Positions 55,599 through 56,733 of a stretch of DNA of 58,032 nucleotides are shown here, piece after piece (position 1 is the stretch's first letter; each line of letters opens with the position of its first letter). Origin of the DNA: Clostridiales bacterium (GTDB lineage: Bacteria; Bacillota; Clostridia; Peptostreptococcales; NVVX01); the NCBI GenBank assembly GCA_021129775.1, contig JAJOKP010000095.1:1-58032 (forward strand), given 5' to 3'. The position numbers were made by a program, and so were the translations under genes. The notes below the pieces were generated by a model. The model searched no databases. It worked only from the letters and a program-made list of their open reading frames with translations, and was not told where the DNA came from.

Positions 55599-56514
55599 AG
55601 GCTCTAACCTCCTTTAAATTATTAAAGTCAATTGTGAATCCGCATGCAGAGAATGCAGACTCCATCTGTCTCATTAATTTATCATATCGACCGCCTTGCA
55701 AAATAATTTTGCTATAGTCGTTAACATAAGCTTTGAAAATAATTCCTGAGTAATAGTGGTAAGTATTTGTAAATCCCATATCTAGCATCATATATTTAGC
55801 AAAGTTTTTGGTATCAAGGAAATTGTAGATTGTTTCAAGTCTTTCTATTGCAGCGAGTGCTTTAGTGTTTAGTGCGATAGCTTTTGCTCTTTCGACGGAT
55901 TGCTTGAATGAACCGAAAATTAATGGAATTTTGCAGATGTTTTGTTTTTGTTTATCAGTTATATTTAGAGAGTCTAAGAGAGAAGTGAGTTCAAAAATGT
56001 TCTTCTCTTCAATTAGAGCAAGAATTTCTTTGGTAGATTCGGCTGGAATTGACTGTAACATTGCATGTATGAACTAAATGGACCCTAAATCAATTTTGAA
56101 ATTCTCAATGCTTAAATTAATTAATGACTGAATAGCCATGAATAATTGCTCGCCATCTGCCTCCAATAAGTTTTCATTGTAGTTTTCCATACCCCAGACA
56201 GTTGTCTCTTTAATTTTTCTTTTAGAATCTGTATAAAGTGTTTTCGATAGGTAGGCTATTTTTTTTTCGATTGGCATGTACTCAGGGCTCTTTGAAAAAA
56301 TCTGTGCCATAGATAAGGTGCAATCGAAATTCACCACTTGAACAATGCCGTCAGCATCGACAAATTTCACCATTTTTCGTTTAATGTAATCCTCCATGTT
56401 GGTAAATTCCTTGAAGTCTATCAACGTTGGGATTTCAGCATTTTTATAGCCGAATTGATTCGAGAGCCCTATTAAAGTATTCATGTCTTTTGTCGATACG
56501 TTAAAGTATTTCAT
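55549..56514 (-). pseudogene. hisZ: ATP phosphoribosyltransferase regulatory subunit with in-frame amber stop
   Basis: The reverse-strand frame codes for 146 residues (from the ATG at 56514), then TAG at 56076-56074, then continues in the same frame for 174 more codons to 55549. Both halves are HisZ-like: a class II aaRS-like fold without synthetase catalysis, with KIDLGSI before the stop and YSGIIFKAYV ... ILQGGRYDKLM after it. Total length with the stop read through is about 321 residues, short but plausible for HisZ. There is no frameshift; one base change removes the stop. HisZ is needed by short HisG, so loss would cause histidine auxotrophy. Suppression, two-part expression from ATG 56061, sequencing error or true decay are all possible. 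Confidence 0.85.
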
Positions 56515-56539: not shown

Positions 56540-56587
56540 AAAATTAAAAAACCAGTAAAACAAACTTGAAGCTTGCTCTTACTGGTT
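56540..56587 (-). terminator. Attenuator terminator of the his operon
   Basis: On the reverse strand AACCAGTAA (56587-56579) pairs with TTACTGGTT (56558-56550) around a 20-base loop, followed by TTTTTAATTTT. It lies between the leader peptide and hisZ. Its 5' arm can instead pair upstream (TGGTTG at 56608-56603 with CAACCA at 56588-56583), giving an antiterminator. Confidence 0.8.
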
Positions 56588-56679
56588 GGGTTGGATTTCT
56601 ATCAACCATTCCTTCTTAGAGGCAAACTCCTTTGAAACTCAAAATGGAGTCTGCATCGTGAATAAACGGCACATACTCT

Positions 56680-56733
56680 CTAAGAATGATGATGGTATTG
56701 TATTGATGAACTAACTTTTTTTGAAAGCAACAT
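56680..56733 (-). CDS. His operon leader peptide
   Basis: 17 residues, MLLSKKVSSSIQYHHHS, then TAG, with AAGGGGG upstream. Three consecutive His codons lie just before the stop. The end of the peptide gene (CTTAGAG, 56684-56678) pairs with CTCTAAG (56621-56615), and the downstream segment holds an antiterminator and a terminator. This is the arrangement of ribosome-mediated attenuation: a ribosome stalled at His codons would favour the antiterminator and let hisZ-hisG be transcribed. Confidence 0.8.
   Translation of the reverse strand: MLLSKKVSSSIQYHHHS

Follow-up and report, generated by a model that had tools for sequence, protein, structure and literature searches.

A histidine leader upstream of hisZ-hisG and a probable family of codon-swappable attenuator RNAs in Clostridia

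We analyzed a stretch of 58,032 nucleotides of Clostridiales bacterium DNA, referred to here as the window, and found that the leader of its hisZ-hisG genes is a real minus-strand feature consisting of a promoter, a 17-amino-acid leader peptide, and a terminator. We consider it very likely that this leader is a ribosome-mediated transcription attenuator for histidine, in which the pairings B:C and D:E would alternate with C:D and E:F. Furthermore, our data suggest, with good but lower confidence, that the leader belongs to a single Clostridia-wide attenuator RNA which has been re-addressed to His, Tyr, Phe, or Leu by its codon run, and that the Rfam families RF04312 (trpB motif) and RF02863 (Enterococcus sRNA_2410) are parts of this RNA and are read by the ribosome and not by a ligand. 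The evidence for the window leader and for the family is computational throughout.

The hisZ-hisG leader and its exclusive pairings

The features of the leader are listed in Table 1. A TTGACA/TATAAT arrangement likewise lies 5' of a paralogous leader in the same genome and of the leader of Alkaliphilus sp. NORP52 (G001, NVVX01000014.1), a genome of the same genus that NCBI places in Peptostreptococcales. The first-pass annotation had proposed a 17-residue HHH peptide, and the reading frame is indeed preceded by a strong ribosome site (AAAAAAGGGGG) and ends with three His codons, a Ser codon, and the stop. Of 66 short ORFs in control DNA that have a ribosome site, none contains three His within seven residues. 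The T-tailed terminator proposed at the same time was also recovered; its arms, AACCAGTAA/TTACTGGTT in the window, are exchanged for CCCTGTA/TACAGGG in the paralogue, a compensatory replacement. The folding energy of the window leader is -51.8 kcal/mol compared to -33.3 +/- 3.7 kcal/mol for shuffled sequences (z about -5).

Table 1. Features of the hisZ-hisG leader and the genes behind it, in window coordinates
Feature	Position	Strand	Description
Leader promoter	56832-56803	minus	TTGACT, 18-nt spacer, TG-extended TATAAT; 11/12 consensus, sigma-70-like
Leader peptide ORF MLLSKKVSSSIQYHHHS	56733-56680	minus	17 codons, stop TAG; homologous HHHH and HHHHH ORFs
Three His codons CATCATCAT, putative sensor	56694-56686	minus	3-5 His codons at this place in family members before his genes
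Segment A TTCTTAGAG	56686-56678	minus	includes stop codon; pairs with 3' part of D; MFE fold
Segment B GAGTATGTGCCGT	56678-56666	minus	right after stop codon; starts GAGTATG; B:C covariation
Segment C ACGATGCAGACTC (ends ..GATGCAGACTC)	56659-56647	minus	pairs with B or D
Segment D GAGTTTGCCTCTAAGAA	56629-56613	minus	pairs with C (and A) or with E
Segment E AGAGCAAGC	56579-56571	minus	in terminator 5' arm; antiterminator with D 56627-56618
Intrinsic terminator hairpin E:F	56587-56550, T tract 56551-56546	minus	folds
hisZ, putatively regulated gene	56514-55549	minus	ATG at 56514; 64% identical to NORP52 HisZ
hisG (short form), putatively regulated gene	55598-54978	minus	76% identical to NORP52 HisG

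The terminator and antiterminator pairings of the window leader are mutually exclusive and are placed so that the position of the ribosome would select between them. The CTTAGAG/CTCTAAG stem noted in the first reading holds as a pairing that spans the leader stop codon. The TGGTTG/CAACCA antiterminator that had been suggested with it was rejected as unconserved, since CAACCA is missing from the paralogue and from the relative and is specific to the window copy; D:E is supported instead. In the window, the energy of D:E is -13.2 kcal/mol compared to -6.4 +/- 1.9 kcal/mol for shuffled E, with 0 of 100 shuffles as good, and the mean over 95 family loci is -10.8 kcal/mol compared to -6.1 kcal/mol with shuffled E. 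A terminator is present at all 95 of the family loci tested.

Conservation of the two competing helices was calculated from 33 sequences. C:D is paired in 91.9% of cells, a value that 0 of 500 shuffles reach, and both sides have changed in 9 of its 15 pairs, while slid versions pair in 23-37%. B:C, which lies outside the covariance model, is paired in 92.6% of cells and has 11 double-change cells compared to 3.7 in shuffles (0 of 500 reach 11). With 92 unique sequences, C:D is paired in 94.6% and B:C in 93.1%, in an alignment that was fitted to C:D and not to B:C.

We propose that when His-tRNA is scarce, a ribosome would stall on the His codons and leave segment B free to pair with C, such that D stays open, captures E (the 5' arm of the terminator), and RNA polymerase reads into hisZ-hisG. 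When His-tRNA is plentiful, the ribosome would proceed to the stop codon and mask segment B; C:D and E:F would then form and transcription would end. Without translation, A and C would both pair with D, and the terminator would form too.

When the three genus leaders were folded downstream of a ribosome on the first His codon, B:C and D:E formed, and with the ribosome at the stop codon B:C was lost, C:D formed, and E was left for F. Equilibrium folds of 95 family members gave P(B:C) 0 and P(C:D) 0.88 for a ribosome at the stop codon, and mean P(B:C) 0.35 and P(C:D) 0.57 for a stalled ribosome; P(B:C) was higher in the stalled state than at the stop for every one of the 95. These equilibrium folds did not separate D:E between the states across the whole family, and for the window copy the stalled-state fold depends on precisely where the edge of the ribosome is set. 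Mixed folds in the stalled state would be expected if folding order matters. Our computations cover the parts, the compensatory changes that preserve the two exclusive helices, the agreement of the leaders with their target genes, and the folds predicted for them, and from these we infer stalling, readthrough, and regulation of the window leader in the cell.

A his operon in two halves

Our data indicate that the his operon is split in the window's genome and that each half has its own attenuator. The second leader copy (C55:263-475), 74% identical to the window leader, encodes MLSTVKINSAILLHHHHS with HHHH and precedes hisDCBHAFIE. NORP52 has a single leader, encoding MLQTTKINAAAQLHHHHHS with HHHHH, before an unsplit hisZGDCBHAFIE. 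In the comparison of leaders named as a check in the first-pass annotation, the His codons are kept, as HHHH in the paralogue and HHHHH in NORP52, and the stems covary. The accompanying statement that the leader controls only hisZ-hisG holds for the window copy; the remaining pathway genes lie behind the second copy.

Between the second copy and hisD lies a 59-bp hisZ relic (alignment score 71, compared to 36 for the best of 200 shuffles), and the last bases of hisG also remain between the second attenuator and hisD (both relics at 480-566 of locus L003). These relics indicate a fossil of the operon split. The hisZG pair of the window is flanked by lysS and a sensor gene, and there is no hisZG at the syntenic place in NORP52. 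Compared to that genome, HisZ and HisG are 64 and 76% identical, respectively, the other His proteins 87-95%, and LysS 90%. Given the relics, the synteny, and the divergence, we infer that the operon lost its first genes in place and that a more diverged hisZG with an attenuator of its own, which may have arisen by duplication or by transfer, serves from elsewhere. Contamination was rejected as the source of the window contig since LysS, at this identity, is also syntenic with a genome of the same genus.

The hisZ frame contains an in-frame TAG at 56076-56074 (minus strand), where the relative has a Glu codon. A recoded codon was rejected: TAG is a normal stop that terminates 12 of 41 long frames, and no pyrrolysyl-tRNA synthetase was found above the cut-off. 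Therefore, either hisZ is broken or the draft sequence is in error. The genome is a draft, 87% complete.

Codon runs, downstream genes, and related RNA families

Plain DNA similarity found nothing outside the genus among 148 relatives, and related leaders were found at HisZ loci of the order. A covariance model made from nine His leaders (R1) matched 50 of 395 genomes of the order, including Tyr-run leaders before sodium symporters. A second covariance model without the codon run (R2) matched 70 of 390 genomes of the order, in 34 genera, as well as 15 of 391 genomes of the class; in a 399-genome sample of the phylum it matched none outside the class. R3, a codon-blind model for which His leaders alone were used, recovered all 50 aromatic loci at E up to 0.005 and 0 of 42 control loci, with a best E of 0.53 among the latter, E-values of covariance models being rough. 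Since R3 recovers the aromatic loci and not the controls, the His and aromatic switches are homologous.

A leader ORF is present at all 99 of the R2 loci examined. His-run leaders precede genes for HisZ (35 loci), HisD (2), HisS (4), and a family-3 solute-binding protein (7), while Tyr/Phe-run leaders precede sodium symporters (13), BrnQ-like carriers (14), TrpXYZ-like ABC permeases (21), and an NhaC-like antiporter (1). Among classified loci, no crossover between His and Tyr/Phe runs and gene classes was found; two R2 loci are without a classified gene, one of which (L195) encodes a TrpX-like binding protein. His runs occur in 49 of the 99 leaders compared to 0 of 66 comparable ORFs from attenuator-free control loci, and strong Tyr/Phe runs in 40 of 99 compared to 1 of 66. 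Where other genes are downstream, the position of the His codons holds Tyr, Phe, or Leu codons, and the codons CAY, UAY, and UUY are single-base differences. In one genome (G054), two tandem transporter operons (L159 and L163) with permeases 99.7% identical carry a Tyr leader (MNTLLNNKKYYYYYSHYF) on one and a Phe leader (MKTLLNKQVRFFSSQFS) on the other, in addition to a His leader elsewhere. This pair suggests either/or sensing after a codon swap.

Further variation was seen within the family. The family-3 solute-binding protein behind the His-run attenuators at L105, L107, L111, L115, L116, L118, and L121 is annotated only as a general polar amino-acid binder, and we consider it probably a His uptake system. 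At three loci with aromatic leaders (L123, L127, and L134) there are two successive terminators, each with an E-like arm complementary to D. Leu runs (LLLLANL) stand before a distinct sodium symporter subfamily at L231, L238, L241, L251, and L252.

The trpB motif (RF04312), of which over 900 examples are reported from Firmicutes and Fusobacteria, has been presented as a strong riboswitch candidate, although its authors did not rule out a classic attenuator (PMC11109978). The window leader has no RF04312 match, and the aromatic leaders score just below its gathering threshold (best 57.6 compared to 59 bits). When aligned with L142, L225, and L228, the RF04312 consensus corresponds to C:D, D:E, and E:F: both of its hairpins, and the antiterminator that it places in P1's right shoulder, are those of the family, but the Rfam model begins at segment C and leaves out B and the leader ORF. 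Within the taxonomic family of genome G651, 26 of 116 genomes match RF04312, all below its cut-off. All 26 sub-threshold loci examined have a leader ORF directly upstream, with His before hisZ or hisS, Phe/Tyr before symporters, BrnQ, and ABC genes, and Leu before another symporter subfamily; 25 of these 26 are also recovered by R3 at E up to 0.007. Judged from RF04312 matches that all lie below cut-off, the trpB motif and the His/Tyr/Phe/Leu attenuator family are likely identical, and a codon-swappable attenuator probably explains the motif.

Three leaders before BrnQ-type genes (L198, L202, and L213) are matched by RF02863 above its gathering score. The RNA behind this model, Enterococcus sRNA_2410, differs in that it was described as an sRNA and not as an attenuated leader (PMC5593968), a comparison made via the Rfam model only. 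The fit suggests that the annotated sRNA_2410 may be an attenuated leader.

Alternative readings and known systems

A T-box riboswitch that reads uncharged tRNA-His directly would be a familiar solution, since T-boxes are common in the window's genome (10 matches elsewhere in it) and are a known regulator of his genes in Firmicutes (PMC9413887). The first reading of the sequence saw no T-box, and the covariance search bears this out: RF00230 has no match over the window leader at the gathering level or at E up to 10. A scan of the whole window matched no Rfam family at the gathering level, and between 56400 and 57200 no Rfam match was found at E up to 10 except two chance snoRNA-like ones. Moreover, one of the conserved elements is a translated codon run, and it varies with the gene that follows. 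We regard a T-box as extremely improbable. The codon run also bears on the idea of a riboswitch or protein-binding RNA that senses the free amino acid, with the short ORF incidental. Segments B, C, and D are conserved in sequence beyond the codons, and the related trpB motif has been put forward as a candidate riboswitch (PMC11109978). However, an ORF with a gene-matched run ends at the switch at 99 of 99 R2 loci and 26 of 26 RF04312 loci examined, and no part other than the run varies consistently with the amino acid predicted, which makes a free-amino-acid sensor very unlikely.

The window leader might also be a decaying, non-functional copy that remained after the his operon was split. It is the most diverged of the three genus leaders and has the fewest His codons, which is evidence against the attenuator reading, and its model score is the lowest of the genus (43.6 bits compared to 51.8 and 59.8). 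Because of this divergence, the few His codons, and the nonsense codon in hisZ, the window copy could be decaying. Nevertheless, its promoter, ORF, both helices, terminator, and D:E are intact, the terminator arms have changed in a compensatory manner, and hisG is intact as well. Decay therefore seems unlikely to us, and we favor a ribosome-mediated attenuator for histidine.

The enterobacterial his leader combines a His codon run with the exclusive pairings B:C/D:E and C:D/E:F. The window leader has the same operating logic, with six segments like those of E. coli his, and the ribosome-mediated attenuation of enterobacterial type proposed in the first-pass annotation is supported computationally; its observation was confirmed, and its interpretation supported, in part. 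The enterobacterial leader differs in having 7 His codons compared to 3-5 here, and its covariance model (RF00514) did not match the window leader at the gathering level or at E up to 10. The likeness is most likely convergent.

The family would form a natural series of one switch that is set to different amino acids via codons alone, a leader-peptide counterpart of the T-box specifier. Leader codons yield predictions of the substrates of uncharacterised transporters, namely sodium symporters, BrnQ-like carriers, TrpXYZ-like ABC systems, and NhaC-like antiporters. For an orphan riboswitch candidate of which more than 900 examples are reported, the family also suggests an answer that can be tested directly.

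Leader-peptide attenuators of his genes in Firmicutes have already been published (Naville and Gautheret 2010, PMC2965389; Ashniev et al. 2022, PMC9413887), including, in the former, a bacilli leader before both hisZ and a hisS paralogue. These attenuators share with the window leader a run of 3-5 His codons, hairpins that alternate, a terminator in front of his genes, and the absence of a T-box. As in Ashniev et al. 2022, three to five His codons stand directly before the his attenuator in the three genus leaders, and family f4 of our scans probably includes the Peptostreptococcaceae attenuators of that study. The published attenuators, as far as described there, concern His only and are treated separately by lineage (PMC9413887, PMC2965389). 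In the literature searched, there is no description of the Tyr, Phe, and Leu leaders of the family. Our data differ from these reports in that one homologous RNA covers His, Tyr, Phe, and Leu, the two exclusive helices both show covariation, and each half of a split operon has a leader. Both the codon-swappable family and the attenuator reading of the trpB motif appear to be new.
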